From assembly GCF_003386285.1 (NCBI RefSeq), contig NZ_QPNC01000005.1, positions 1 to 64,000 of the forward strand: a stretch of DNA of 64,000 nt. The letters are read 5' to 3'. Position 1 is the stretch's first letter; the number at the start of each line of letters is the position of its first letter. A program made the translations under genes and the position numbers. Source of the stretch: Nocardiopsis sp. FIRDI 009. Lineage in GTDB: Bacteria > Actinomycetota > Actinomycetes > Streptosporangiales > Streptosporangiaceae. This document shows, piece after piece, positions 4,381 to 38,978 of this stretch. The notes below the pieces were generated by a model. The model did no database searches. It was not told the DNA's origin and worked only from the letters and a program-made list of their open reading frames with translations.

Positions 4381-6099
4381 TCAGTCCTTCAGCCCCGGAA
4401 GGTCCTCTTCCCAGAACTCGCGCGGGTTGCGCTGGCCGTCGGTGACCGTGCCGCGCTCGGCTTCGGCCTGCCGCAGTTGTACACGTCGGATCTTACCCGA
4501 GACGGTCTTCGGCAGATCGGTGAACTCCAGGCGACGCACCCTCTTGTAGGGGGAGAGGCGCTCGCGGGCGTAGGTCAGGATGGCGCGGGCGGTGTCCGCG
4601 TCCGGTGGTACGCCCTCGGCCAGGGTGACGTAGGCCTTGGCCACCGACAGACGCAGCGGGTCGGGGGAGGGGACGACCGCCGCCTCGGCGACGAATTCGT
4701 GTTCGACGAGCACGCTTTCGAGTTCAAATGGTGAGATGCGGTAATCCGACGCCTTGAACACATCGTCGATCCGGCCGATATAGGTAATGTAGCCGCGGGT
4801 GTCCCGGGTGGCGAGGTCACCGGTGTGGTAGAGGCCGAGCCGGGTCACGTCGCGGGTCAGGTCGGTGCCGTCGGCGTACCCCGTCATCACCCCCACCGGA
4901 TCCCCGGACAGGTCGACGCAGATCTCTCCGGTCTCGGCCCTCTCGTCGGTGGTGGGGTCGGCGAGCACGATGTCGTATCCGGGCAGCGGGCGGCCCATCG
5001 ACCCCGGTACGACGGACTGCCCCGGAGCGTTGCCGACGAGCATGGTCGTCTCCGTCTGCCCGAACCCGTCGCGGACGGTGATCCCCCAGGCGTCACGCAC
5101 CCTGTCGACCACCTCCGGGTTGAGCGGCTCGCCCGCGGCGACCGCCTCGCGCAGCCGTACGCGCCAGGAGGCCAGGTCGGTCTGGATGAGCATGCGCCAC
5201 ACCGTGGGCGGCGCGCACATGGTGGTCACGCCGCAGCGGACGACCTGGTCCAGCAGCCGCTCGGCGTCGAACCGGTCCTGGTTCACCACCAGGACGGTCG
5301 CCTCGGCGTTCCACGGGGCGAACACGCTGCTGTAGGCGTGCTTGCCCCAGCCGGGCGAGGAGATGTTCAGGTGGATGTCGGCGGGCTGGACGCCGAGCCA
5401 GTACATCGTCGACAGGTGACCGACCGGGTAGGAGCGCTGCGAGTGGGAGACCAGTTTGGGCCGGGAGGTCGTGCCGGAGGTGAAGTACAGCAGCAGGGGG
5501 TCGTCGGCTCCGGTGGGGTGCGGCGGCGTGAAGTCCAGGGCGGCGTGCTCGGAGTCGGGGTAGCTCAGCCAGCCGTCCATGTACCCGACGCAGATACGCG
5601 TCCAGTGGCCGCGCAGGTGCGCGAACTTCTCGGTGTCGGTGGGGGAGCACACCACGTGCGCGACGTCGCCCCGGTCCAGCCGGTCCACGAGGTCGCTCTC
5701 GGTGAGCATGGGGGCGGTCGGGCAGACGACGGCGCCGAGTTTGATCGCCGCGAGCGTGGTCTCCCACAGCTCGACCTGGTTGCCGAGCATGAGCATGATC
5801 CGGTCACCCGGGTGCACCCCCTGGCCGATCAGCCAGTTGGCCACCTGGTTGGAGCGTTCGGACAGGTGCCGGTAGGTGTACCTGGCCTCGCTCCCGTCCT
5901 CCTCGACGATCCACAGCGCGGTGCGGTCGGGGACGGCCTCGGCCAGCGCGTCGAAGTAGTCCAGGGCCCAGTTGAACCGCTCGGACCGGGGCCAGCTGAA
6001 CTCCCGGTGCGCTCTGGGCTGGTCCTCGCGGTACCGGAGCAGCAGGTCACGGGCGGCCCGGAACTCCGCCGCCCCCGCGGCGGCCCTCTCTTTCGACAT
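4381..6099 (-). CDS. Medium-chain-type acyl-CoA synthetase / AMP-dependent ligase
   Basis: A 572-residue ANL-superfamily enzyme that activates a carboxylic acid through an acyl-AMP and transfers it to CoA. The P-loop YFTSGTTSRPKL is at 205-216, the A5 motif DGFGQTET at 344-351, YHTGDLA at 424-430, and PKTVSGKIRR (530-539, catalytic Lys536) closes the C-terminal domain. Overall architecture resembles ACSM-like medium-chain synthetases, but the acid is not predictable. GGAGGTCGCCGACG precedes the ATG. It lies upstream of the DAHP synthase gene, separated by 200 bp with an inverted repeat, so the two are probably separate transcription units. Confidence 0.9.
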   Translation of the reverse strand: MSKERAAAGAAEFRAARDLLLRYREDQPRAHREFSWPRSERFNWALDYFDALAEAVPDRTALWIVEEDGSEARYTYRHLSERSNQVANWLIGQGVHPGDRIMLMLGNQVELWETTLAAIKLGAVVCPTAPMLTESDLVDRLDRGDVAHVVCSPTDTEKFAHLRGHWTRICVGYMDGWLSYPDSEHAALDFTPPHPTGADDPLLLYFTSGTTSRPKLVSHSQRSYPVGHLSTMYWLGVQPADIHLNISSPGWGKHAYSSVFAPWNAEATVLVVNQDRFDAERLLDQVVRCGVTTMCAPPTVWRMLIQTDLASWRVRLREAVAAGEPLNPEVVDRVRDAWGITVRDGFGQTETTMLVGNAPGQSVVPGSMGRPLPGYDIVLADPTTDERAETGEICVDLSGDPVGVMTGYADGTDLTRDVTRLGLYHTGDLATRDTRGYITYIGRIDDVFKASDYRISPFELESVLVEHEFVAEAAVVPSPDPLRLSVAKAYVTLAEGVPPDADTARAILTYARERLSPYKRVRRLEFTDLPKTVSGKIRRVQLRQAEAERGTVTDGQRNPREFWEEDLPGLKD

Positions 6100-6238
6100 C
6101 GTCGGCGACCTCCGGTTCGGGAACCACGGACCGGGGCGGGCCCGTCCGCGTGCTCGGCCCGCGTGGGGCGCTGGGAACGCTGTGCCCAGCAGGTCCTACC
6201 CGGTAAGCCCGCGGGCGACGCCTGCGGGCAGCGCGCCG

Positions 6239-6251
6239 TACCATGGGCCGC
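6239..6251 (+). promoter_or_regulatory. Candidate leaderless promoter (-10 TACCAT)
   Basis: TACCAT (6239-6244) is followed by 7 bases and then the ATG at 6252. A -10 element of form TAnnnT at this distance places the transcription start at or next to the start codon. There is no Shine-Dalgarno sequence. The in-frame ATG at 6243 would fall inside the -10 element, which is why 6252 was preferred. Confidence 0.55.
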
Positions 6252-8227
<1,976 letters not shown>

Positions 8228-8276
8228 CGGACCGGCCGGAGACCGGGGGTTCACCTCCCGGCCCCGGCCGCGGCCG

Positions 8277-10334
8277 TCAGTACCGGGCGTCGGCGGTGCA
8301 GTCCGCCTCCAGGAGGTCGACGGAGTTGAACATGCCCAGCTCCGCCAACTGCTGGCGCCCCTGACGGCGGGACAGGTTCCATGAGGCGAAGCCCCTGCCC
8401 TCGGGGGCCTCCAGCCGGTCCCGGAGCCCCAGCAGGGCGCAGTCCCGGTCGTCGCCCGCCAACTCCATGAGCCCGGGGACCGCGTCGGCGGACAGGTCCC
8501 CCAGGTACTCGGTGTCCACGGTGGCCAGGTCGAGGTCCTGGTGGCTCTCGGCGATGCGCAGGTCCGGGTTCCCGTAGGCGAACACGGTCAGCGCGACCGC
8601 GGAGAGGGCGACGGTGGCGCGCGGGAGCCAGGCGGTGGAGCGGCCGAGCGTGTTGGCCAGACCCGCCACCATGACCAGGACGAACACGGCGCCGCTCCAC
8701 AGGATCCATGCCTCGGCGCTGGCCCGCATGCGCGTCAGTCCGAAGGTGTCGATGTAGAGCTGGAGCCGCATCATCGCCGAGACGAGGATGACGAGAGTGA
8801 GCAGGCACAGCAGACCGAGCAGGGCGTTGCGCACGGTGCGGGCGGTCGCCTCGCGGGCCGGGACCACCGCCGTGACCAGGGCGATGACGCCCAGGACCAG
8901 GAAGCTGACCACGACGAGCTGGAAGAACCCCTGCCGTGCGTACTCGGCGTAGACGAGTCCGGTGACCGACTGGACGTAGTCGTCGCCGCCGAACATCACC
9001 GCTCCCTGGACCACGACGAACGCCGTGAACAGCGCGATGAGGGAGCCGAGCGGGATGCTCCACACCCAGGTCGGCCAAGTGGGGCCGGAGGAGGCGGTGG
9101 TCGCCTCCGGAGGCGCGACCGGTACGTAACGCGGCGTGGGGCGCCGCCGGGCGGCCAGGACGGCCGACCCCGTGAACAGGACGGCCAGGGCGGCGCCGAA
9201 CAGGTCGGAGACGACCGTTCCGAGGTTCACGTTCTCGAACGGGCGGGCCAGGTAGCTGGCGAACACGGGGTCGGCGAAGGAGAAGAGCACGCCGAAGACG
9301 GTCAGCAGCACGGCGGTGACGGCCGTGGTGAGCACGGCGGGACCCACGAGCCCCCGGCCGCGGCCGGAGCGCAGGGGGCCGAGCAGGAAGCGCGGGCTCG
9401 CCGGGAGGTGCCGGAGCAGTGCCAGGCTCCCGGCGACCACGCCGACGGGGCCGCGCCGTGCGGCCGGGCTGTGGAGGGCGAAGGCCAGCGAGGCCAGGAG
9501 GAAGGCGCCGGTCAGGGTCCAGGCGAGGACCCAGCCCGCGTCGCGGAGGGCGGCGGTGGCCAGCAGGACGGCGGCGAGCACGCCGAAGACCGCCGACCAG
9601 GCGCGGCCGTGGCGTTCGGGTTCCGGATCGGGGACCGGCACCAGCACGGGTTGGGGGGCCGGGGCGGCCGCCCGGTGGGGAGGTCGCCCCGGGTGCGGCG
9701 GCCAGGGGGTGTGTTCCCGCCCGGAGCCGTGCGTCTGGGGGTGGTGCGGCGGGTTCGTTCGGCCGTCCTCGTCGGCCGTGTCGGGCGCACCGGCCGTCCG
9801 GGGACCCTCGGTCTCCTCGGTCCCCGTGCCCGTGTGCTCCGGGGATCCGATGGGCGCCCGCGCTTCGGGGTCGTCGTGGCGGGCGGGCTCCGGCCCCCTC
9901 CGTGGCCCGTCGGTCCGGCCCCCCTCGGGGGCGGCGGTCGCGTCCGGCTCCGCGGCCTGTCGGGAGCTGTCCTGTTCACGCTCCTCCCGGGGCTCGGCGG
10001 CCCCGTTCGGGTCCCCGGACGCCTCCGTCTCCTCCGGTCCGCTCTCCGTGACGGCGGGCCGCGCCGTGAGGGCGGCCAGCGCCGTCAGCCCCGCCACCAC
10101 ACCGGTGATGACCAGCCCGATCCCCGGGCGGTTCAGCGTGGCCAACAGCGCGGCGACGACACCGACCGCCAGTACCGCGAAGGGCAGCCAGCCCGGTGCC
10201 CGGGGCAGCGGGGGCCTCGGTCTGAGGTAGGGCGGATGGACGCTCGGACCGTAGGGCGGGTACTCCGACGGCGGTGTCCCCGGGGGGTGGGGTCCCGGCC
10301 GTTGTTCTTCTGCCGTGTCCTTGTGCGCGGTCAC
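8277..10334 (-). CDS. Large multi-pass membrane protein of the DUF4153/DUF4173 type
   Basis: About 685 residues. After a short Pro-rich N-terminus come two membrane segments, then a roughly 120-residue hydrophilic Glu/Pro/Arg-rich linker. The C-terminal half has many transmembrane helices and the signature YAEYARQGFFQLVVV...MRLQLYIDTFGLTRMRASA seen in DUF4153/DUF4173 proteins. The GTG start at 10334 is supported by GAGGAGAGGAG. The family is of unknown function, sometimes linked to envelope processes. The C-terminal extracytoplasmic tail (VDTEYLGDLSADAVPGLMEL...) contains several cysteines. Stands alone. Confidence 0.8.
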   Translation of the reverse strand: MTAHKDTAEEQRPGPHPPGTPPSEYPPYGPSVHPPYLRPRPPLPRAPGWLPFAVLAVGVVAALLATLNRPGIGLVITGVVAGLTALAALTARPAVTESGPEETEASGDPNGAAEPREEREQDSSRQAAEPDATAAPEGGRTDGPRRGPEPARHDDPEARAPIGSPEHTGTGTEETEGPRTAGAPDTADEDGRTNPPHHPQTHGSGREHTPWPPHPGRPPHRAAAPAPQPVLVPVPDPEPERHGRAWSAVFGVLAAVLLATAALRDAGWVLAWTLTGAFLLASLAFALHSPAARRGPVGVVAGSLALLRHLPASPRFLLGPLRSGRGRGLVGPAVLTTAVTAVLLTVFGVLFSFADPVFASYLARPFENVNLGTVVSDLFGAALAVLFTGSAVLAARRRPTPRYVPVAPPEATTASSGPTWPTWVWSIPLGSLIALFTAFVVVQGAVMFGGDDYVQSVTGLVYAEYARQGFFQLVVVSFLVLGVIALVTAVVPAREATARTVRNALLGLLCLLTLVILVSAMMRLQLYIDTFGLTRMRASAEAWILWSGAVFVLVMVAGLANTLGRSTAWLPRATVALSAVALTVFAYGNPDLRIAESHQDLDLATVDTEYLGDLSADAVPGLMELAGDDRDCALLGLRDRLEAPEGRGFASWNLSRRQGRQQLAELGMFNSVDLLEADCTADARY

Positions 10335-28809: not shown

Positions 28810-29712
28810 TCAGGCCCCCTCCGGCGCCGCCTCCAGGTGGTCGGCGACCAGCTTCTCCAAGAGTTCGGCCAGCGCCTCGGGCGCCTCCAGCGGTCCCATG
28901 TGGCCGACCCCCGGGATCTCGACCACGGGGCCGTCGGCGCCCGGGATGAGGTCGACCATGTGGTGCGCGTGCCACGGCGGCGTGAACTTGTCCTCGCCCC
29001 CGGCCACGACGACGGTCGGGGCGGTGATCCGGCGCGCGGAGTCGTCCAGCTCCAGGGTCGCCAGCACCCTGCCCCAGCGGCCGCGCGCCACGGGCTCGCA
29101 CGCGTGCACCATCCGGGCGGTCAGCCGCCTGGCGCGGCGGTCCGCGCGCCCTCCCAGGACCAGGTGGGCCAGCGCCGCCGCCGTGACCGGGTTGGCCGGG
29201 CCCATGGGCAGCGTCGTGCGCAGGAACGCCTGCGCGCCCAGGTACCCCAGCACACCGGGCAGCGGGAACGCCGTGGAGCGCCTGACCAACTGCGTGCACC
29301 CGGTGTTGGTGAGCAGGACGGCCGCCGCCCGGTCCGCGAACGCCGCGCGCGGACCGGCCGCCATGACGGTCATACCGCCGATGCTGTGCCCCGCGACGAC
29401 CGCTCTGCGCCCCTCCGGGACGGTGGCCTCCAGCACGGCGCACAGGTCGTCGGCGAGCTTGTCCGTGCCGTACCCGGCCTTGGTGAGGGGGGTCTGACTG
29501 CGCCCGTGTCCGCGCTGGTCGTACAGCACCACGCGCAGACCGGGGTCCAGCGCGCGCACCACCGGCCCCCAGGACGCCAGCGACGTGGCCCAGCAGTGGG
29601 CGAGGACCACGGTCGGGCCGTCCTCGGGACCGCGCACCTCGACGTGCAGTCGGGTGTGGTCGGCGGAGCGCACGGTGAGTTCCCGGGCCTGGCCCGGGTG
29701 TCGGGTCGCCAT
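28810..29712 (-). CDS. Alpha/beta hydrolase, last gene of the oxidation cluster
   Basis: About 300 residues. Nucleophile Ser in GHSIGG, oxyanion segment LAHCWATSLASWG, LYDQRGHGRS, catalytic Asp in GGEDKFTPP and His in GVGHMGPLE: a complete hydrolase fold without a signal peptide. It is in line with DUF4873, FMO, AurF-like and SDR genes. In Baeyer-Villiger pathways an esterase hydrolyses the ester or lactone made by the monooxygenase, which is a natural role here but inferred from context. GAGAGG precedes the ATG. Confidence 0.87.
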   Translation of the reverse strand: MATRHPGQARELTVRSADHTRLHVEVRGPEDGPTVVLAHCWATSLASWGPVVRALDPGLRVVLYDQRGHGRSQTPLTKAGYGTDKLADDLCAVLEATVPEGRRAVVAGHSIGGMTVMAAGPRAAFADRAAAVLLTNTGCTQLVRRSTAFPLPGVLGYLGAQAFLRTTLPMGPANPVTAAALAHLVLGGRADRRARRLTARMVHACEPVARGRWGRVLATLELDDSARRITAPTVVVAGGEDKFTPPWHAHHMVDLIPGADGPVVEIPGVGHMGPLEAPEALAELLEKLVADHLEAAPEGA

Positions 29713-29763: not shown

Positions 29764-30102
29764 TCAGTCGTCGAGCGTGACGTCCGGAACGGGGAACGGC
29801 GGCGTGCCCGCCCCGCTGATCGGATGCCCTCCCCAGAGGTTGGGCTCGTCCAGGTCACCGACGCCCTCGTGGCCGTCCGGGGTCCGGACCCGGACGGTGC
29901 GCACCCCGCTCTCGAAGGCCGCGGTCACCCCGGGGTGGGCGGACAGCCGTCCCTTCCAGCGGTAGTCGCCGGTCAGCGGGGAGAAGTGGCCCGCCAGGTG
30001 GGCGTCGACCTCGACGGCGGACCCCTCCTCGGAGCCGTCTTCCGTCAGGACGATCGTCACCGGCCCCCGGTACTCCTCTTCCTCGTCGCCGAACCCGCTC
30101 AT
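29764..30102 (-). CDS. DUF4873 domain protein
   Basis: A 112-residue beta-rich soluble protein (YRGPVTIVL...VDAHLAGHFSPLTGDYRWKGRLSA...TPDGHEGVGDLDEPNLWGGHPISGAGTPPFP), the DUF4873 pattern. In other actinobacteria this domain is often fused to or beside flavin monooxygenases. Here its ATG lies 13 bases after the FMO stop, supporting a functional link such as an accessory or substrate-handling subunit. No activity known. Confidence 0.82.
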   Translation of the reverse strand: MSGFGDEEEEYRGPVTIVLTEDGSEEGSAVEVDAHLAGHFSPLTGDYRWKGRLSAHPGVTAAFESGVRTVRVRTPDGHEGVGDLDEPNLWGGHPISGAGTPPFPVPDVTLDD

Positions 30103-30115
30103 CGTCTCTGCCTCC

Positions 30116-31633
30116 TCACGCCGGGACGGGGGTCCTGCGGGCCCCGCGTGCGCGGCTCAGCCTCAGGTCGTAGTTGTGGGGGTCGAACCACCGGGTCCGC
30201 AGCGCGTAGCTCCAGGTGAAGGACGGCCACAGCGTCGTGTTGCGGCCCTCCTCGTTCAGGTACCAGCTGTCGCAGCCGCCGGACACCCACACGGTGCCCT
30301 CCATCGCCTTGGCGACCATGTCGTTGTAGGCGCGCTGGGCCTCGGGGCGCACCTCCATCCGGTCGATCCGGTTGCGGCACGCGTACCTGAGCGCCCGCAT
30401 CGTGTACCGGATCTGGGCCTCGATCATGAACACCTGGGAGGTGTGACCGAGCCCGGTGTTCGGTCCGGCGAGGATGAAGGCGTTGGGGAACCCGGCGACG
30501 GTGGTCCCGCGGAACGCCTGGGCCGTGCTGCCCCAGTGCTCGGCCAGGGAGACCCCGTCGGCGTCGAACATCCGGTGCGCGATCGGGGGGTCGGTGACGT
30601 GGAACCCGGTGCCGAGGATGATCGTGTCGACCTCGTGCTCGGTCTCCCGGCCGGAGGTGTCGCGGGTGACGACCGCGTTCGGCCGCACCTCGACGATCCC
30701 GTCGGTGACGACGTCCACGTTGGGCTGGGCCAGCGCGGGGTAGTAGTCGTTGGACATGAGGATGCGCTTGCAGCCGGCCCGGAAGTCCGGGGTGAGCTTG
30801 GCGCGCAGTTCCGGGTCCTTGACGCTGCGGTTGATGTTGGCCCGGCCGAGCCGTTCCACCAGGCCGAGGAGCCTGGGGTTCTTCGCGAAGCCGAAGACGT
30901 AGTTCTCCCGCCCCCAGTAGATGCCCTTGCGTGCGATCTGCTGGGTGAGGGGGATGTTGCGGTACAGCCAGCTCTCCAGTTTGGTGATGTCGCGGTCGTG
31001 GCGGAACATCACCCACGGCGCGGTGCGCTGGAAGAGGGAGAGCGCGGCCACCTTCGGCTGGATCCTGGGCACGAACTGGATCGCCGACGCCCCGGTCCCG
31101 ATCACGGCCACCCGGCGGCCGGTCAGGTCGTGGTCGTGGTCCCAGTCGGCCGAGTGGAACAGGGTCCCCTCGAAGGAGTCCAGGCCCTTGATGTCCGGGA
31201 AGGACGGGTCGGCGAGCGGTCCGGCTCCGCTGACCAGGAACTGGGCGGTCACGGTGCCGCCGCTCGTCTCGATCCGCCACCGGTTGCGTCGCGGCTCCCA
31301 GTGAGCGGCCTCGACGTCGTGCCCGTAGCGGACGTGGCGGTCGACGCCGTACTCGCCCGCGACCCGCTTCAGGTACTCCCAGATCTCCGGCTGGGGGGAG
31401 AACGAGCGGCTCCACCCGGGGTTGGGCGCGAAGGAGAAGGAGTACAGGTGCGAGGGGACGTCGCAGGCGGCACCGGGGTAGGAGTTGTCCCGCCACGTGC
31501 CGCCGACGTCGTCGGCGCGTTCCAGGACCACGAAATCGGTCAGGCCCGCCTGCCTGAGGCGGACGGCCATGCCGATCCCGGCGAAGCCGGTCCCGATGAC
31601 GGCCACCCGGAAGTGCGGTGGTTCTTCGGTCAC
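30116..31633 (-). CDS. Flavin-containing (Baeyer-Villiger type) monooxygenase
   Basis: A 505-residue class B flavoprotein monooxygenase. FAD Rossmann motif GTGFAG at 14-19, GGTWRDNSYPGAACDVPSHLYSFSF after it, then the Baeyer-Villiger fingerprint FxGxxxHxxxW as Phe154, Gly156, His160, Trp164, and the NADPH Rossmann motif AVIGTGASAIQ near 177. It probably inserts oxygen into a ketone to give an ester or lactone. The GTG at 31633 is preceded by GAAGGGACC. It is 309 bp after the AurF-like gene, with two stem-loops in between, and followed closely by DUF4873. Confidence 0.92.
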   Translation of the reverse strand: MTEEPPHFRVAVIGTGFAGIGMAVRLRQAGLTDFVVLERADDVGGTWRDNSYPGAACDVPSHLYSFSFAPNPGWSRSFSPQPEIWEYLKRVAGEYGVDRHVRYGHDVEAAHWEPRRNRWRIETSGGTVTAQFLVSGAGPLADPSFPDIKGLDSFEGTLFHSADWDHDHDLTGRRVAVIGTGASAIQFVPRIQPKVAALSLFQRTAPWVMFRHDRDITKLESWLYRNIPLTQQIARKGIYWGRENYVFGFAKNPRLLGLVERLGRANINRSVKDPELRAKLTPDFRAGCKRILMSNDYYPALAQPNVDVVTDGIVEVRPNAVVTRDTSGRETEHEVDTIILGTGFHVTDPPIAHRMFDADGVSLAEHWGSTAQAFRGTTVAGFPNAFILAGPNTGLGHTSQVFMIEAQIRYTMRALRYACRNRIDRMEVRPEAQRAYNDMVAKAMEGTVWVSGGCDSWYLNEEGRNTTLWPSFTWSYALRTRWFDPHNYDLRLSRARGARRTPVPA

Positions 31634-31942: not shown

Positions 31943-32857
31943 TCAGCGACCGAGCAGTCCGGCCTTCCTCCAGAAGTACTTTCCGAGGCCGGAGATGGCG
32001 CCGGCGGTGGTCAGGGTTCCGACGACCTTGCGGGCAGCCCAGGTCTTGGTGTCGATCCAGTGCGGGTTGGCCTTGGCGGCCCGGTACGCCTCCTTGGGGT
32101 CCAGTCCGACCTGCTCGTAGACCTTCGGGTTGATCAGCCGCGTGGCGGAGTAGTAGGTGACCAGGCCGAGCATGAGACGGCTGTAGGCCCTGTTGAGGGG
32201 GCCGCGCCTGGCCCAGTCGCGGGCGAACTCCTCTCGGGCGTAGCGCATGTGCCGCGCCTCCTCCACCACGTGGATCCGGGAGACGGAGCGCACCAGGGGC
32301 AGGACCTGCTCGTCCGGGATGGCCTCACGCTGGAGCTGGTCGAGAACCTCCTCGACGAACAGCGCTCCGGCGAAGATCAGCGGCCCGTGCGCGATCGCCT
32401 TGAACACCCTCCCGAGGTGGTAGGCGACCGGATCGAGCCGGTAGGTGTGCCAGCCGAGCTTGCCCACCATCTTGGCGAACATGACGGTGTGGCGGCACTC
32501 GTCGGCGATCTCGGTGTAGGCGTACTGGACGTGGTTGGTGGTGGGGTCGTTGTGGTAGGCGTGCCGCACCAGCATCTGCATGAGGATGGTCTCGAACCAG
32601 ATGCCGATGGTGGCGACGGAGGCGATCTCCAGGCGGCTGAGCTCCTTGCGCTTCTCCTCGCTCAGCTGGTCCCACAGGGGCGTGCCGTAGATGGAGATGC
32701 GCTCGGGGCGGATGGCCCACATGTCGGGGTCGACGGGGGCGTCCCAGTCGATCTCGACGAGCGGGTCGAACGAAGCCTTGGCCGAACCGCGCAGCAGGCG
32801 CTTGGCGATGTCCTCGCGGTCGGTGAGCTTGGGTTTGGCGGGGGTCTGGGTGGTCAT
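31943..32857 (-). CDS. AurF-like ferritin-fold diiron oxygenase
   Basis: About 304 residues, mostly helical. The diiron ligand motifs of the AurF (p-aminobenzoate N-oxygenase) group are visible: EIASVATIGIWFE, EIADECRHTVMF (ExxxxExxRH) and a later FVEEVLDQ...VVEEARHMRYAREE. AurF-type enzymes oxidise amines to nitro groups, but the wider family in actinobacteria includes uncharacterised oxygenases beside lipid genes. A GGAGGGACGAG ribosome site precedes the ATG, and it lies 11 bases after the SDR stop, so the two are clearly co-transcribed. Confidence 0.85.
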   Translation of the reverse strand: MTTQTPAKPKLTDREDIAKRLLRGSAKASFDPLVEIDWDAPVDPDMWAIRPERISIYGTPLWDQLSEEKRKELSRLEIASVATIGIWFETILMQMLVRHAYHNDPTTNHVQYAYTEIADECRHTVMFAKMVGKLGWHTYRLDPVAYHLGRVFKAIAHGPLIFAGALFVEEVLDQLQREAIPDEQVLPLVRSVSRIHVVEEARHMRYAREEFARDWARRGPLNRAYSRLMLGLVTYYSATRLINPKVYEQVGLDPKEAYRAAKANPHWIDTKTWAARKVVGTLTTAGAISGLGKYFWRKAGLLGR

Positions 32858-32868
32858 CTCGTCCCTCC

Positions 32869-33723
32869 TCAGGACACGTTCGGCCGGGGGTTGGCACCGT
32901 CGTGACGGGCGTGGAGTCCCTGGGCGATCTCCGCGTCGCCGAAGGCCCCGTCCGCGAGGAGCAGGCCCAACTGGAGCGACACGATCCGTTCGGTCGTGCC
33001 GGGGAAGTGCCGGGTCAGGTGGAGCGCGACCGCGCCGAGACCGGTGGAGGCCACGTCTCGCGGGGCCCGCCTGGCTCCGGCGGCCCGGACCACCGACATG
33101 ACGGTGTCCCGTTCCCGTTCGGCGGGGACGAGGCCGTCCAGCGCGACACCGGTGGCCCGGGAGCTGTCGTGGATGGGGGTGTCGACGTAGCCGGGGTAGA
33201 CGGTGGTGACCCCGACGTGGGTGCCGTACTCCGCGCGGAGGCAGTCGGCGTAGGCGGCGAGGGCCCGCTTGGAGACCGTGTAGGCCCCGGCGAAGGGCAG
33301 CTGGAGGTTGGCCAGCAGGGACGAGGTGAGGATGACCCGTCCCCCGCCCTCGACCAGCGCGGGCATCGCGGCGGAGGTGACCCGCCAGGCGCCGAGCAGG
33401 TTGACCTCCAGCGCCTGGTGCACGTGGACGTCGGGCTCCCGGCCGATGTCGACCGCCGGGCCGATGCCCGCGTAGTGGATCAGCAGGTCGAGGCGGCCGC
33501 CGAGCTGCTCGACGGCCTCGGCGACCGAGGAGCGGACCTGCTCGTCGTCGGTGATGTCGCAGCCGATGACACCGGGGGCGGGCTTGCGGTCGAGGCCGAC
33601 GACGTTCACCCCGAGGTGACGGAGGACGGCCACGGTGGCGCTGCCGAACGCTCCGGAGGCGCCGGTGACGATGGCGTTCTGGCCGGGGAGCCGTCGCAGG
33701 TGGCGCGGCAGGGGGGTCGTCAT
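32869..33723 (-). CDS. Short-chain dehydrogenase/reductase, first gene of the oxidation operon
   Basis: About 284 residues. Nucleotide motif TGASGAFG at 20-27, YAGIG (84-88) in place of the usual NAG motif (the Asn is replaced, by Tyr), catalytic Ser134/135, Tyr148 and Lys152 (YTVSK). C-terminal part includes TVYPGYVDTPIHDSS. It probably interconverts an alcohol and the ketone used by the monooxygenase. It is read first from a promoter with -35 TTGCAT (33779-33774), 17-bp spacer and -10 TAACGT (33756-33751), whose spacer is filled by the 25-bp shared element. Confidence 0.9.
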   Translation of the reverse strand: MTTPLPRHLRRLPGQNAIVTGASGAFGSATVAVLRHLGVNVVGLDRKPAPGVIGCDITDDEQVRSSVAEAVEQLGGRLDLLIHYAGIGPAVDIGREPDVHVHQALEVNLLGAWRVTSAAMPALVEGGGRVILTSSLLANLQLPFAGAYTVSKRALAAYADCLRAEYGTHVGVTTVYPGYVDTPIHDSSRATGVALDGLVPAERERDTVMSVVRAAGARRAPRDVASTGLGAVALHLTRHFPGTTERIVSLQLGLLLADGAFGDAEIAQGLHARHDGANPRPNVS

Positions 33724-33748
33724 GTGATCTCCTCCACAGTCATTGCCG

Positions 33749-33777
33749 GAACGTTACAACGAGCATTGTCACAATGC
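33749..33777 (-). promoter_or_regulatory. MerR-type operator candidate at the SDR promoter (shared element, copy A)
   Basis: On the plus strand GAACGTTACAA-N7-TGTCACA spans 33749-33773. Inside the region is also a perfect palindrome GCATTGT-C-ACAATGC (33763-33777). The element occupies the -35/-10 spacer and the -10 of the SDR promoter, the position used by MerR activators, and lies between the SDR gene and the divergent MerR gene. An element with 19 of 25 identical positions and identical spacing lies at 36786-36810. Confidence 0.65.
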
Positions 33778-33944
33778 AATGGGGTGAGACGGGAAATTTA
33801 CTTGCGAGTAGCTTCGGCGGGTCGCGGGGGAGCCGTGGAGGTGAACGGGACGGCGCGGGGTCGGCGACCCGGGAACGCCCGCCCAGAGGCGCAGTCGTGG
33901 CCGGGTGGAGGCGGCAACCGGCCGACAGCGCGTGCGGCGGTCTC

Positions 33945-33957
33945 TAGGCTTGGACCC
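33945..33957 (+). promoter_or_regulatory. Candidate leaderless promoter of the MerR gene (-10 TAGGCT)
   Basis: TAGGCT (33945-33950) is followed by 7 bases and then the ATG at 33958. No Shine-Dalgarno sequence is present. Confidence 0.5.
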
Positions 33958-34749
33958 ATGGCCGAATACCGCATTGACGAACTCGCCCGGCTCGCGGACA
34001 CGACGGTGCGCAACGTCCGGGTCTACCAGGACCGGGGACTGCTCGCTCCGCCCCGCAAACAGGGACGCGTGGGTATCTACTCGGAGGCGCACCTGGCACG
34101 CCTGCGGCTGATCGGCCAGCTACTGCGGCGCGGGTACACGTTCGCCAACATCGGCGAGATGTTCGCGGTCTGGGAGCGCGGCGGCGGCCTCTCCGACATC
34201 CTCGGCTTCGAGTCGGCCATCGGGGACGCCTGGAGTGACGAGATCGCCGACTACGTCACCGTGGGCGAGCTGCGCGACCTCTTCGGCAAGGGTGTGACGC
34301 CCCGGACGATAAAGCGGGCCATCGACCTGCGGGTGCTCGAACGCGACGGGCTGCGCTTCCGTGTCCCGAGCCCGCGCCTGCTGCACGCCGGGGCCGAGCT
34401 GGTCCGGATGGGGATGAGCGTGGACTCGGTCCTCGACATAGCGGAGAACCTGCGCGCCAAGGTCGGCGACGTCGCCGAACACATGGTCCGCCTGGTCGCC
34501 GAGCACATCCTGGCCGAGTACGCGCCGCTGACGGTGATACAGACCGGCAGCGAGGAGGTCGCGGAGATCGCCGAACTGATCCGCCGGGTGCGCCCGCTCG
34601 CCCAGCAGGCCGTGGACGCGGTCCTGGCCCAGGAGATGGCGGAGAAGATGAACGACGTGATGGGCGAGCACTTCGCCCTGGCGATGGAGCACATGCGCGG
34701 AGAGCCGGGCGGCCACCCCAAGGAGGACGGCCCCGCGGGGCCCGCCTGA
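33958..34749 (+). CDS. MerR-family regulator of the oxidation cluster
   Basis: About 263 residues. The N-terminal winged helix is classic MerR (YRIDELARLADTTVRNVRVYQDRGLLAPPRKQGRVGIYSEAHLARLRLIGQLLRRGYTFANI). The C-terminal part is long and helical (about 190 residues) without the cysteine metal site of metal-sensing MerRs, suggesting an organic ligand. It is divergent from the SDR-AurF-FMO-DUF4873-hydrolase operon and convergent with the GMC gene. The shared element at both flanking promoters is its most likely binding site. Confidence 0.9.
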   Translation: MAEYRIDELARLADTTVRNVRVYQDRGLLAPPRKQGRVGIYSEAHLARLRLIGQLLRRGYTFANIGEMFAVWERGGGLSDILGFESAIGDAWSDEIADYVTVGELRDLFGKGVTPRTIKRAIDLRVLERDGLRFRVPSPRLLHAGAELVRMGMSVDSVLDIAENLRAKVGDVAEHMVRLVAEHILAEYAPLTVIQTGSEEVAEIAELIRRVRPLAQQAVDAVLAQEMAEKMNDVMGEHFALAMEHMRGEPGGHPKEDGPAGPA

Positions 34750-34823
34750 GCACTCGTGCGCCGGGGCCGCCCGGCCGGTCGGCGCCGGGCGCCTCCTCAG
34801 GCGGGTCGGGGCGGAACGGTCCC

Positions 34824-36704
34824 TCAGGAGCCGCCCCCGCCCTCGGCGGCGGCGCCTTCCCCGGACGCGTCCCGATCGGTCGGGGACCCCTCGCCCCCGT
34901 CCGCTCCGCGCACCACCGACAGCGGGAGCGGGGTGGTGTAGCGCAGCTCCGCGAAGGCGCCCGCCGGGACCGCGGGCGCGTGCGGGAACACCGGACGCAG
35001 CCGCCGGTACGGCTCCCCCTGCGCGGGTCGGGGGTCCTGCTCACCCTTGTTCGGCCACAGCGACATGGCGCGCTCGGCCTGGGCGGTGATGGTCAGCGAC
35101 GGGTTCACCCCGAGGTTGGCGGTGACCGCCGCGCCGTCCACGACGTGGATCCCGGGGTGCCCGTACAGCCGGTGGTAGGGGTCGATCACACCGTTGTCCG
35201 GACCGTCCCCGATCGGACAGCCGCCCAGGAAGTGCGCGGTCATCGGGATGTTGAACACGTCGCCGACGGTGCCGCCGGGGTAGCCGTCGATCCGCTCGGC
35301 GAGCCGGGTGGCGGCCTCCTGGCCCTCCGGGATCCAGGTCGGGTTCGGCTCTCCGTGGCCCTGGCGCGAGGTCAGCTTCTTGCGTCCGCCGAGCAGGCCG
35401 CGCCTGACCGAGGTCGTCAGCGAGTTGTCCAGGGACTGCATGACCAGGCCGATGATGATCCGCTCCGACCAGCGCCGGTTGGAGAGGCTGCGGGCGAAGA
35501 CGTAGGGGTGGCGTGCGGCCCGGCCCAGGAAGCGCAGCCAGCGCGGCGCCCTCCCCCCGCCCGGCACCTGGATCGTGGTGAGCAGGCCCATCGCGTTGGA
35601 GCCCTTGCCGTAGCGGACCGGTTCGATGTGGGTGTTCTCGTTGGGGTGGATGGAGGAGGTGATCGCCACCCCCCGGGTCAGGTCCTCGGGCGGCGGCACG
35701 TGGCGGCTCATCGCGCCCACGAGCGCCTCGGAGTTGGTCCGGGTCAGCGTTCCGAGCCTGGCGGACAGGCGGGGCAGCAGCCCGGCGTCGCGCATCCGGT
35801 GCAGGAGGGTCTGCGTGTTGTACGTCCCGGCGGCCACCACGACCTGCCCGGCGGTGAACGTGCGGGCGTTCTCCCGGCGACGCGGCGCGTCGGTGCGGAC
35901 GGTGTCGACGGCGAAACCGCCGCCGGGCAGTTCCCGCAGCCGCTCGACGGTGGTCAGCGGGTGGACCTCGGCGCCCGCGCGTTCGGCGAAGTACAGGTAG
36001 TTCTCGGTGAGGGTGTTCTTCGCGCCGTGGCGGCAGCCGGTCATGCACTCGCCGCACTCCGTGCACGCCCGCCGCTCGGGGCCCGCGCCGCCGAAGTAGG
36101 GGTCGCCGACGGACTCGCCCGGCGCGGCCTCGTTGCCGTCGCCGTCCGCACCGTCGCCGAAGCACACGCCGACGGGGGTCAGGCGGAAGGTGTGACCCAC
36201 GCCCATCTCCTCGGCGACCGCCTTCAGGTGGACGTCGGAGGGGGTGACGGTCGGGTTGGTGCGGACGCCGAGCATGCGCCGGGCCTGGTCGTAGAAGGGG
36301 GCGAGCTCCGACTTCCAGTCGGTGATGTGCCGCCACTGCGGATCCTCGAAGAACGCGTCCATCGGGTGGTAGAGCGTGTTCGCGTAGTTGAGCGAACCGC
36401 CGCCGACACCGGCTCCGGCGAGGATCATGACGTCGCGCAGCAGGTGGATGCGTTGGATGCCGTACATACCCAGCCGCGGCGCCCAGAGGAAGTTGCGCAC
36501 GTCCCAGGAGGACGACGGCAGTGTTTCCGGGGTGAAACGGCGCCCGGCCTCCAGGACGCCGACGCGGTAGCCCTTCTCGGTGAGCCGGAGGGCGCTCACC
36601 GAGCCGCCGAAGCCGGAGCCGACCACGATGACGTCGTAGTCATGGGGGTCCGTGGCGTGCTCGGTGGAGCGGGCGGGCGGTGGTGCGTTGCGCTCTGCGG
36701 ACAC
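34824..36704 (-). CDS. GMC-family flavin oxidoreductase (cholesterol-oxidase-like) with four-cysteine motif
   Basis: About 626 residues. FAD motif VVGSGFGGS at 27-35, second flavin segment AGAGVGGGSLNYANTL (96-111), and a C-terminal GMC domain with TAHFLGGCPIG and VDGAAVTANLGVNPSLTITAQAERA. Between them is CTECGECMTGC with Cys214, 217, 220 and 224, the iron-sulfur-like or zinc-like cluster found in the ChoD-like GMC branch. The GTG at 36704 has GAAAGAGG upstream; the longer open frame runs through the promoter. Likely substrate is a hydrophobic alcohol or sterol. Leftward and convergent with the MerR gene. Confidence 0.88.
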   Translation of the reverse strand: MSAERNAPPPARSTEHATDPHDYDVIVVGSGFGGSVSALRLTEKGYRVGVLEAGRRFTPETLPSSSWDVRNFLWAPRLGMYGIQRIHLLRDVMILAGAGVGGGSLNYANTLYHPMDAFFEDPQWRHITDWKSELAPFYDQARRMLGVRTNPTVTPSDVHLKAVAEEMGVGHTFRLTPVGVCFGDGADGDGNEAAPGESVGDPYFGGAGPERRACTECGECMTGCRHGAKNTLTENYLYFAERAGAEVHPLTTVERLRELPGGGFAVDTVRTDAPRRRENARTFTAGQVVVAAGTYNTQTLLHRMRDAGLLPRLSARLGTLTRTNSEALVGAMSRHVPPPEDLTRGVAITSSIHPNENTHIEPVRYGKGSNAMGLLTTIQVPGGGRAPRWLRFLGRAARHPYVFARSLSNRRWSERIIIGLVMQSLDNSLTTSVRRGLLGGRKKLTSRQGHGEPNPTWIPEGQEAATRLAERIDGYPGGTVGDVFNIPMTAHFLGGCPIGDGPDNGVIDPYHRLYGHPGIHVVDGAAVTANLGVNPSLTITAQAERAMSLWPNKGEQDPRPAQGEPYRRLRPVFPHAPAVPAGAFAELRYTTPLPLSVVRGADGGEGSPTDRDASGEGAAAEGGGGS

Positions 36705-36785
36705 TGAGGCCTCTTTCAGTTCGGGTGTCGCGGTCCCGTAGTGCGCCGGATACGAGTCTGCAACATCGAATACGCCATCTAGAAA

Positions 36786-36810
36786 TGTGACATTTTCTAT
36801 TGTAACGTTC
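36786..36810 (+). promoter_or_regulatory. Shared element, copy B, between the GMC gene and DUF6230
   Basis: Plus-strand reading TGTGACA-N7-TTGTAACGTTC. Together with TAGAAA (36780-36785), a 17-bp spacer and TAACGT (36803-36808), it has the same promoter geometry as the SDR promoter, but pointing rightward to DUF6230. On the minus strand the same element holds TACAAT (36804-36799), a good -10 for the GMC gene. It may serve both directions. Confidence 0.6.
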
Positions 36811-36830
36811 GTCACTACCGCCGAGTAGGT

Positions 36831-36846
36831 GTGTTCCATGTAACAC
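36831..36846. promoter_or_regulatory. Near-perfect 16-bp palindrome upstream of DUF6230
   Basis: GTGTTCCATGTAACAC is palindromic except for one symmetric base pair. It lies about 20 bp downstream of shared element B and 70 bp before the DUF6230 start. It could be a second operator. No dedicated regulator is adjacent apart from MerR. Confidence 0.4.
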
Positions 36847-36916
36847 GCGAGGCGCGCGTCGGCGCAACACACGTTCCCCCTCGCCGCCCCGGGCGGCGAA
36901 ACCCTGGAGGTTGCAG

Positions 36917-37564
36917 ATGCCCAAGCCTTCCGATGAGGCGCTCCAGGCGTCTCAGGACGCGCCTGAGCAGTACGACGGTGGCGGAGGCACACGGTGGCGG
37001 AGGTTCGCCCTCATCGCCGTGCCCGGTCTGACGGCCGCCGCCGTCCTCGGCGGGATGACGACGCAGGGGCTCCTGGCCGCCTCGTTCGCCGTCTCCGGTG
37101 ACAGCTTCAAGATGTCCGCTGACCAGCTCACCGGACAGGGATTCACCCAGTACGGCGACGTCGCCGAGTCCGTCGACGGCTCCGGCCGCGCCGTCGGACT
37201 GTCCACGGTCAACACCGCCGACCTGGAGAACCTGTGCATGTCCTCCCTGTGGGACCTGGGCATCGGCGAGGCCACCCTGGTGATCACCGCCGGTGAGACG
37301 GACCCGGTCCACGGCACCGACCTGGTGCTCGACCTCGAACAGCTGCGCGGCAACGCCGAGTTCGACCAGATCGAGATCGGCCGCGACGCCAGCACACTGG
37401 ACAAGGCCGAGGGCGGCCAGGGCCCGGCGGGCGGGTTCGGCCTCCAGGCGGACGAGATCCGGGTGGCGGACGTGGAGCTGACCACCTGGGCCGTCACCTC
37501 CGGCTCCCTGCGGTTGAGCGGCCTCAACCTGGCAGTCCTCCCGGGCAACCACGAGTGCTTCTGA
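36917..37564 (+). CDS. DUF6230 family membrane-anchored protein
   Basis: A 215-residue protein with a polar N-terminus, one membrane segment (about 30-55, FALIAVPGLTAAAVLGGMTTQGLLAASF) and a predicted extracytoplasmic domain that begins AVSGDSFKMSADQLTGQGFTQYGD. This is the DUF6230 pattern, usually encoded beside DUF6114 in Streptomyces and relatives. Function unknown; older annotations call some members cholesterol esterase without support that I know of. TGGAGGTTGCAG precedes the ATG. The downstream DUF6114 gene starts 4 bases after its stop. Confidence 0.82.
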   Translation: MPKPSDEALQASQDAPEQYDGGGGTRWRRFALIAVPGLTAAAVLGGMTTQGLLAASFAVSGDSFKMSADQLTGQGFTQYGDVAESVDGSGRAVGLSTVNTADLENLCMSSLWDLGIGEATLVITAGETDPVHGTDLVLDLEQLRGNAEFDQIEIGRDASTLDKAEGGQGPAGGFGLQADEIRVADVELTTWAVTSGSLRLSGLNLAVLPGNHECF

Positions 37565-37568
37565 TCCC

Positions 37569-38978
37569 ATGGCCCACGCACTCGACGCGCTCGGCACGGT
37601 CTGGGGACGGTTCCGTTCCTGGCGGCGCACCCGACCGTTCTGGGGCGGCCTGCTGCTCGTCGCCGCGGGTGCGGAGCTGTTGGTCGCACCCGCCGCGCAG
37701 AGCCTGATCCTGCCGATCGACCTGATCATCTACGCCGGCATCGCCGGTGTCTCGGGCACCCTCATCGGTGTCCTGCTGATCGCGATCGGGGTGCTCAGCT
37801 GGCTCCAGCCGGTGCAGCACACCTTCTTCGGGCTGGTCGGGCTCCTGCTGGCGCTCGTGTCCTTCGTGACGTCCAACTTCGGTGGGTTCGTCATCGGGAT
37901 GCTGCTCGGCATCGTCGGCGCCTCGCTCGTCTTCGCGTGGGCACCACGCGTGCGGCGGCGACCACCTGGTCGCCGCCGCACGCGGCCCCGCCGCCGTGCC
38001 GACACGCCGACCGGGGAGGAGCCCGGACAGGACATCGCGGACACCGACGCGGAGGACGGGGGTGAGGAGGGCGGTGCCGACGGGGCCGTCTCCCCGGGCG
38101 GGACCCGCCCCCTGGCCGCCCTCGCGCTGCCGCTCGTGTTCACCCTGACCGTCACGGCCGCCCAGGCGCCCGCCGACTGGCCCTGGGACTGGTTCCTCCC
38201 GTCGGGGGACGAGGAGGAGCAACCCTCCGACCCTCCCGCCGACGGCGCCTCCCCCACGGACACCCCCTCTGGAGACCCCTCCGCGGAGCCGACGGCCGAC
38301 CCCACCGACGAGGCCCCCGACGGGACACCGGAGGGACCCGGTGACCGCGAGGACCCGGCCGACCCCCCGGCGGAGGACGGGAACGAGGACGAGGCTGAGG
38401 AGGAGGAGACCGAGGGCGCTGAGGACGCCGACCCGTCCGACTGCCCGATGGTGACCGGCCGGACCGGTGTGGCCGAGACCGAGGAGCAACTCCTGTCGGC
38501 CGTCCGCGCCTGCCAGGCCGCGGCGGAGGAGGGCGACCTCCCGGACGTCGCGGTCGAGGCGGACTACGACTGCTTCTCCGGCGCGACCAGCACCGGCGGC
38601 CTGACGGCGGACCGCCTCACGATGAGCGGGGCCAGTTACGAGGGGGTCGTGGAGTGTCCCACCGCGGACGGCCCCCGCCGTTACCTCCGGCTCTCCATGA
38701 ACCGGGCGAACCTGCGCGGCGCCGAGCTGTGGTTCGAGGACGCCGGGGCCCGGATGAGCCTCGGACTGCCCACCCTGATCATGGAGGGCAGCGTGGAGAT
38801 GCACGTCACCCGCATGCACGTGCGCATCCTGGGCATCCCGCTCACCTTCACCCCGGACTTCCCGCCCCCGCTGCTGCTCCCGTACATGATCGTCACCGAC
38901 GTCGACGTGGCCAACCCGATGGCCAGCACCGACCTGATGACCATCCCCGGCTTCGACGGCCGGTACAACGGGGCCTGA
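37569..38978 (+). CDS. DUF6114 membrane protein fused to an acidic linker and C-terminal secreted-like domain
   Basis: About 469 residues. Four transmembrane helices in the first 130 residues (DUF6114), then a basic segment (RVRRRPPGRRRTRPRRR), another membrane helix near 180-200, a roughly 100-residue Asp/Glu/Pro/Thr-rich linker and a C-terminal domain of about 170 residues resembling DUF6230 (DCFSGATSTGGLTADRLTMSGASYEG). The C-terminal similarity to the upstream DUF6230 protein suggests the two domains work together. The fusion is longer than plain DUF6114 proteins. Function unknown; envelope or lipid-related by context. Confidence 0.78.
   Translation: MAHALDALGTVWGRFRSWRRTRPFWGGLLLVAAGAELLVAPAAQSLILPIDLIIYAGIAGVSGTLIGVLLIAIGVLSWLQPVQHTFFGLVGLLLALVSFVTSNFGGFVIGMLLGIVGASLVFAWAPRVRRRPPGRRRTRPRRRADTPTGEEPGQDIADTDAEDGGEEGGADGAVSPGGTRPLAALALPLVFTLTVTAAQAPADWPWDWFLPSGDEEEQPSDPPADGASPTDTPSGDPSAEPTADPTDEAPDGTPEGPGDREDPADPPAEDGNEDEAEEEETEGAEDADPSDCPMVTGRTGVAETEEQLLSAVRACQAAAEEGDLPDVAVEADYDCFSGATSTGGLTADRLTMSGASYEGVVECPTADGPRRYLRLSMNRANLRGAELWFEDAGARMSLGLPTLIMEGSVEMHVTRMHVRILGIPLTFTPDFPPPLLLPYMIVTDVDVANPMASTDLMTIPGFDGRYNGA

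Follow-up and report, generated by a model that had tools for sequence, protein, structure and literature searches.

A predicted MerR regulon built on a conserved palindromic element links an oxidation gene cluster with DUF6230-DUF6114 in Nocardiopsis

Results

Organization of the locus

The window analyzed here, a stretch of 64,000 nucleotides from Nocardiopsis sp. FIRDI 009 (contig NZ_QPNC01000005.1, positions 1 to 64,000), carries two copies of a palindromic element, dyad A, in the promoter regions of a gene cluster encoding oxidative enzymes, a MerR-family regulator and proteins of families DUF6230 and DUF6114. Site 1 (GTTACAA-N6-TTGTCAC, 33753..33772, plus strand) is located between the predicted -35 and -10 elements of the promoter of an SDR-family gene, and site 2 (GTTACAA-N6-ATGTCAC, 36787..36806, minus strand) between the GMC oxidoreductase and DUF6230 genes. 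A first-pass annotation had described the element as two 25-mers (33749-33773, plus strand, and 36786-36810, reverse) agreeing at 19 of 25 positions with identical spacing; both were found exactly so, with 18/18 named bases present at each. With up to three mismatches, the pattern of 18 named bases gave two matches in the window against none in 100 dinucleotide shuffles, and the same two matches only in the whole 5.8-Mb genome, where the reversed control pattern gave none. A looser pattern (GTTACA-N8-TGTMAC, up to two mismatches) produced 26 and 35 matches in this genome against 57 and 41 for the reversed control, and zero mismatches were reached only at the two known places. The 20-bp dyad GTKACAA-N6-TTGTMAC is a better unit than the 25-mer, the 5' GAAC of which belongs in part to the SDR -10 region.

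The regulator gene, merR (33958..34749, plus strand), encodes 263 amino acids with an N-terminal MerR winged helix-turn-helix (PF13411, E-value 5.8e-20, 71.6 bits against a cut-off of 21.6). Its AlphaFold2 monomer model (mean predicted local distance difference test score, pLDDT, 82.5) displayed helices at residues 155-188 and 199-247, and matched the folds of CadR, PbrR, CueR, GlnR and CarH over approximately residues 1-90.

The leftward operon (minus strand) begins with the SDR-family dehydrogenase (32869..33723; PF00106, E-value 5.5e-31) and further comprises an AurF-like diiron oxygenase (31943..32857; PF11583, E-value 1.9e-104, 349.2 bits against a gathering cut-off of 29.6, which speaks for family membership only), a Baeyer-Villiger-type flavin monooxygenase (FMO; 30116..31633; PF00743), a DUF4873 protein (29764..30102; PF16170, E-value 1.2e-24, tested on 29785-30102) and an alpha/beta hydrolase (28810..29712; PF00561, E-value 7.4e-22). 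The FMO displayed clear homology to Baeyer-Villiger monooxygenases (BVMOs) of solved structure, the best being cyclohexanone and phenylacetone monooxygenase (E-values to 3.7e-64). The first-pass annotation had assigned SDR, FMO and hydrolase to an alcohol-ketone-ester-acid route, a putative function; the present analysis covered the family membership of these enzymes. The GMC oxidoreductase (34824..36704, minus strand, start codon inferred; PF05199) is cholesterol-oxidase-like: it matched solved cholesterol oxidases at an E-value of 4.5e-21, and its 549.6 bits against the cholesterol oxidase ChoxAB model NF058674 lie below the 850-bit cut-off. On the plus strand, DUF6230 (36917..37564; PF19741, E-value 4.1e-46, 157.3 bits against a gathering cut-off of 27.5) precedes DUF6114 (37569..38978; PF19609, E-value 8.5e-35, 120 bits against 27.9). 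The DUF6230 model (mean pLDDT 78.3) consisted of a beta-sheet domain and one helix at residues 28-50 that, on visual inspection, looked membrane-like.

Conservation of dyad A

The first-pass annotation had stated beforehand that a lack of conservation of the element in relatives would refute its interpretation. This search was run on 40 genomes of the genus and 249 genomes of the order, and the element proved deeply conserved. With at most one mismatch, GTTACAA-N7-TGTCAC had at least one match in 39 of the 40 genus genomes; site 2 was present in 39 and site 1 in 37, the genomes without the latter being G002 and G022, whose contigs begin within the cluster, and G026. In loci whose SDR alignment started from residue 1, site 1 lay 30 bp from the SDR start (31 bp in locus L065). 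The MerR orthologue was found in all 40 genus genomes; in G026 it is divided between two frames, and in G009 it consists of two pieces and contains one TGA.

Among the 249 genomes, a line drawn by us at 58% identity or more assigned a MerR orthologue to 61 (35 of the genus and 26 others), hereafter clade A. Exact RTTACAA-N7-TGTCAC occurred in 59 genomes, namely 58 of the 61 with the orthologue and 1 of the 188 without it (G161; Fisher p 7e-52, relatedness not corrected), and its reversed control matched five times in the 249 genomes. The MerR-bearing genomes lacking an exact dyad were G026, in which MerR is decayed, and G235 and G240, which have one-mismatch sites beside MerR. As many as 104 of the 106 exact matches fell within the cluster, the other two (G072:C5 and G161:C2) being outside any MerR cluster. 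The G072 copy (L183:3861-3880) lies in apparently intergenic DNA.

At clade-A loci outside the genus, the dyad (up to two mismatches) adjoined MerR in 23 of 26 cases; locus L119 is cut by its contig and its dyad was found on contig C257. Site 2 (up to two mismatches, palindromic pattern) was present in 23/23 loci of other genera with the GMC promoter and DUF6114 behind it, 22 of which show a DUF6230 match (L117 none). Dyad A was absent from the seven examined DUF6230-DUF6114 paralogue loci elsewhere (0/7).

Genome G026 (locus L058) appears to record a joint loss. Its MerR is frameshifted and lacks the usual start, and DUF6230 is decayed, the genome giving no Pfam match to this family. Site 1 has been lost and site 2 carries two mismatches; GMC is kept at 79% identity, and SDR, AurF and FMO were not found in the examined 19-kb stretch. 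By its sequence, regulator, site and targets decay together in this genome.

Association of dyad A with MerR

Split contigs aside, MerR is the only one of nine cluster proteins common to the mapped dyad-bearing loci, and the neighbours vary. Ten loci (L104, L108-L116) had no SDR match and their dyad precedes AurF; in L186 and L187 (the latter Trebonia kvetii), a one-mismatch dyad separates SDR-FMO from MerR, and the examined 12.7 kb contained neither a GMC nor a DUF6230 match. In clade B, comprising Actinomadura and its kin (loci of this arrangement: L129-L150, L231-L256), MerR shares about 45-54% identity with ours and is divergent from an Rv1264-type adenylyl cyclase, a homologue of which was found in 43 of the 66 examined loci. 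There the same 7-6-7 layout, situated between MerR and the cyclase, reads GTGYCAT-N6-ATGTMAC. The clade-A query, not fitted to clade B, reached 3 or 4 mismatches in 21 of 25 loci, in every case 48-81 bp upstream of MerR, and 5-6 in L146, L151, L152 and L153. Among the 21 is L132, where AurF takes the place of the cyclase as neighbour.

The inner base of the half-sites covaried with residue 22 of MerR, which we take to be in the recognition helix. This was examined with a neutral pattern blind to the inner base at 124 loci (L033-L072 less L041, L058 and L069, plus the window; L103-L153; L186 and L187; L231-L264 less L234). Broken MerR genes (L041, L058), a locus without MerR (L069), a duplicate (L234), the paralogues L154-L160, and L185 and L188-L230, mostly duplicates, were left out; several Actinomadura genomes are counted twice. 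V22 occurred with inner A..T in 64 of 68 loci, A22 with T..A in 40 of 43, S22 with T..A in 2/2 and Q22 with G..G in one, and no dyad with at most one mismatch was found in 10 of the 124 loci, seven of them with V22. Covariation of this kind would be expected if MerR reads the element directly.

A partly similar dyad, ATGACAA-N6-TTGGAAG, was seen in L156 (at 7920) and L157 (at 7772, both in MerR orientation), where the MerR is a 37-38% paralogue with divergent FMO and hydrolase genes.

Promoter elements

Promoter elements were predicted on 64 aligned rows at SDR/AurF-type promoters, chosen by the dyad, and 61 rows toward DUF6230. Toward SDR, TTGCAT-N17-TAACGT was present as previously described: the -35 TTGCAT (33774..33779, minus strand) keeps TTG in 64/64 rows, and the -10 TAACGT (33751..33756, minus strand) reads TAACGT, TAATGT or TAATAT in 53, 10 and 1 of 64. 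TTGNNN thus stands 17 bp from TAAYGT or TAATAT in 64/64 rows; the dyad overlaps the TAA of the -10, not the TTG of the -35. Dyad A was located between -35 and -10, a trait of MerR-family operators, in all of these rows, and the 17-bp spacer, already flagged as atypical for MerR, was equally constant.

Toward DUF6230, the earlier reading TAGAAA-N17-TAACGT can be made out in the window, but the motif conserved among relatives, (T/C)T(G/A)GAA, is shifted upstream by one base and stands at an 18-bp spacer from TAAYGT or TAATCT in 61/61 rows. The -35 is therefore probably CTAGAA (36779..36784, plus strand; CTAGAA, TTGGAA and CTGGAA in 28, 20 and 13 of 61 rows), with the -10 TAACGT at 36803..36808 (plus strand; TAATGT, TAATCT and TAACGT in 52, 6 and 3). 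The -10-like TACAAT proposed for GMC (36799..36804, minus strand) was present and invariant in 61/61 rows, and the dyad overlaps most of it.

In the window, dyad A lies 205 bp from merR, the promoter of which looks separate. TAGGCT ends 7 bp 5' of the merR ATG (33945-33958), which suggests a leaderless transcript. Elsewhere the arrangement is closer. A single dyad (at most one mismatch) situated 85-89 bp before MerR is common to the SDR and the MerR side in 13 loci. In eight Nocardiopsis loci SDR and MerR are 1.2-5.9 kb apart and a further dyad (up to two mismatches) precedes MerR by 87-89 bp in 8/8; self-control of MerR is plausible, on sequence grounds, where the dyad is 85-89 bp upstream. 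In the six loci checked (L039, L041, L042, L053, L071 and L234, the last being on the same contig as L056), a second AurF gene lies within the insert; L045 and L070 have a similar gap. This second AurF gene has its own dyad A copy and mostly its own copy of dyad B, described below. The insert dyad may therefore act on AurF in addition to MerR. In L053, a transposase-like gene and a large nucleoside triphosphatase-like gene were noticed by eye between the two AurF operators (5529-8953, MerR orientation).

Dyad B and dyad C

A second palindrome, dyad B (TACYNNCGAGTA, up to two mismatches), accompanies dyad A at both promoters, a point missed by the first-pass annotation, as was the occurrence of other DUF6230-DUF6114 pairs without dyad A. 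Copy 1 (TACTTGCGAGTA, 33799..33810) starts 46 bp from the start of dyad A; copy 2 (TACCGCCGAGTA, 36816..36827) lies just 3' of the predicted DUF6230 transcription start, over the GMC -35 region. Distances are stable: 46 or 47 bp at site 1 in 36 of the 37 Nocardiopsis loci with that site (not L047), and 29 or 30 bp at site 2 in 39/39 genus loci and 22 of 23 loci of other genera (not L119). Outside the genus, no dyad B was observed close to site 1.

The eight other exact dyad-B places in the genome were all inspected. Four are near genes that we called lipid-type (L161, L162, L164 and L166: an AMP-ligase, fadD-like; a thiolase; an Fe-S protein with CCG domains; a DUF4442 protein), and four near a binding protein, a luciferase-like enzyme (by eye), dxr and a secY/ribosomal stretch (by eye). 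We interpret dyad B as the putative site of a fatty-acid-type regulator; that it couples these promoters to fatty-acid metabolism is about as likely as not. A further conserved inverted repeat, dyad C (GTGTTCCATGTAACAC, 36831..36846), was recognized by eye in the aligned rows of the DUF6230 leader.

Discussion

Proposed mechanism

These observations argue for a local regulon in which MerR acts on dyad A at both promoters by a repression that a ligand releases, with dyad B beside each site; we would give this interpretation a probability of roughly 70%. A MerR dimer would bind dyad A, which fills and overlaps two promoter regions, that of the SDR-AurF-FMO-DUF4873-hydrolase operon and that of the divergent GMC and DUF6230-DUF6114 genes, and would block RNA polymerase at promoters with 17- and 18-bp spacers. 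A small molecule, for which a lipid or oxidized lipid is our leading and still tentative candidate, would release MerR, so that the enzymes, GMC and DUF6230-DUF6114 would be switched on together. A second regulator would read dyad B next to each site and couple the promoters to fatty-acid metabolism. The first-pass annotation had likewise linked both gene sets to one MerR and two sites, a claim that deep sequence conservation supports.

MerR is very probably the binder, because the dyad stays with MerR as neighbours change and because residue 22 covaries with it. Given binding, repression is the mode to which we lean, since the spacers have the normal length of 17 or 18 bp and not 19-20 bp.

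Alternative explanations

Site 2 could control only one of its divergent genes, GMC or DUF6230. The DUF6230 side has both promoter elements and GMC has a good -10 (TACAAT) with no -35 seen. However, TACAAT and the -35 and -10 of the DUF6230 side are all conserved in 61/61 rows, and binding to one of the promoters would place the protein over the second as well, which makes control of a single gene unlikely.

It is somewhat less likely still that MerR binds dyad A as a classic activator, or as a combined repressor and activator, bending the DNA between -35 and -10. Activation is the mechanism that the first-pass annotation had implied, and the conserved spacers, 17 bp in 64/64 rows and 18 bp in 61/61, fit repression better. 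A 1997 paper in the reference list of PMC9909328 states in its title that spacing converts SoxR from an activator into a repressor. A dyad within the spacer is the usual place of MerR-activator sites, yet MerR-activated promoters have spacers of 19-20 bp (PMC5045206, PMC9909328) and lose their response when the spacer is shortened (PMC9909328). FtsR, a distant relative of our MerR by a sub-threshold match, activates ftsZ (PMC6683498), which speaks for activation.

A regulator encoded elsewhere, for instance of the TetR family, might bind dyad A, MerR being a mere neighbour. Palindromes of this type are common to many families, and two exact dyads (G072:C5 and G161:C2) lie away from any MerR cluster. 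Such an explanation is nevertheless improbable in view of the single dyad-bearing genome among the 188 without a MerR orthologue, of MerR as the one protein shared by the mapped dyad loci and of the residue 22 covariation. The notion that conservation merely reflects promoter hexamers has very little chance of being right: TAACGT and TTGCAT do overlap or flank the dyad in the SDR promoter, but the GTGAC plus dyad layout is conserved beyond them, site 2 keeps the dyad despite another -35 offset (18 bp), and Actinomadura keeps a dyad variant in another promoter context.

Several points weigh against a MerR regulon on dyad A as proposed. Relatedness of the genomes inflates the conservation counts. 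Loci L117 and L121 have lost site 1 with MerR and operon kept, and one changed base in site 2 is common to G001, G027, G030 and G034. Near the start of merR itself, no dyad was found in the window (best 8 mismatches), and only 5 of 16 loci with a modest gap had a copy there (up to three mismatches). By eye, the GMC promoter has no good -35 upstream of TACAAT. For clade B, 20 shuffles averaged 5.3-6.6 mismatches with minima of 3-6, so that the 3-4 mismatches of single loci are not beyond the best shuffle and not significant; the case for the clade-B dyad, a sequence-based one, is carried by its constant position and by the alignment. Residue 22 may be just a clade marker, since two main clades carry the signal, and some matches to the neutral pattern are possibly due to chance because it names only eight bases. 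More distant MerR relatives (L259-L261, L263 and L264) had no convincing dyad. Finally, dyad B, searched as TACTNNCGAGTA with at most one mismatch, was only mildly enriched in the genome (28 and 31 matches against 20 and 23 for the control).

Relation to known systems

CarH is a MerR-type repressor that blocks RNA polymerase, and CarH/CarA and HspR are the closest mechanistic parallels considered here: they share with our regulator the MerR winged helix and, as proposed, binding over the core promoter with RNA polymerase blocked. The present MerR differs from them by its operator and by its 263 residues with a second winged-helix-like unit in the model, and no B12-type part was found in it by Pfam. 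The activators MerR, CueR, SoxR and BmrR likewise have the winged helix-turn-helix and an operator between -35 and -10, but their spacers are 19-20 bp long, against 17 or 18 bp here. FtsR (Rv1828) recognizes a 25-bp motif, AACCCTAAAGTAAAGGTTGAGGGTA, with ftsZ as target (PMC6683498); motif and target differ here, and our MerR scored 23 bits with NF050798, below the 150-bit cut-off. In the lipothrenin cluster, which yields threonine-hexadecanedioic acid amides, an AurF-like diiron N-oxygenase (litN) stands beside a DUF4873 protein (litO), and N-hydroxylated products were abolished by deletion of litN and reduced by deletion of litO (PMC10616846). A GMC oxidoreductase and a hydrolase also belong to that cluster, as in ours; it is however biosynthetic, with TetR and AfsR-type regulators, and the available part of the report describes no SDR-FMO-MerR or DUF6230 set in it (PMC10616846).

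A broader and doubtful idea is that this MerR subfamily senses fatty acids or oxidized lipids through a C-terminal part sharing ancestry with the Rv1264-type domain, that it faces a cyclase in Actinomadura, and that in Nocardiopsidaceae it was rewired by a small operator change to lipid oxidation, DUF6230-DUF6114 being a cell-envelope part for transport or display. The regulatory domain of the Rv1264 adenylyl cyclase binds oleate, and the cyclase divergent to an Actinomadura MerR in L129 matched Rv1264 over residues 18-323 (E-value 3.6e-21). Our MerR, unlike Rv1264, is no cyclase, and Foldseek matched its model only weakly to the Rv1264 regulatory domain (E-values 1.3e-3 to 1.4e-2, template modelling scores 0.31-0.37 by query length). 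None of these matches reached an E-value of 0.001, and their root-mean-square deviations were 9-14 Å. One profile comparison gave a weak score of 24.6 (highest of 40 shuffles 19.1; Prob 5), and another fell inside the shuffle range.

Conclusion

Neither this regulon nor a function for DUF6230 was found described in the literature searched, most subscription journals being outside the reach of the search. Local MerR regulons as such are familiar; the operator, the subfamily and the targets are undescribed in the searched literature. An uncharacterized actinobacterial MerR subfamily thus gains a candidate operator. DUF6230-DUF6114 is placed under the same predicted switch as the AurF-BVMO-SDR-GMC set, so that deletion combined with lipid analysis offers a way to test its function. 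The two clades, which differ in their operators, and the candidate specificity residue constitute a natural experiment on MerR recognition.

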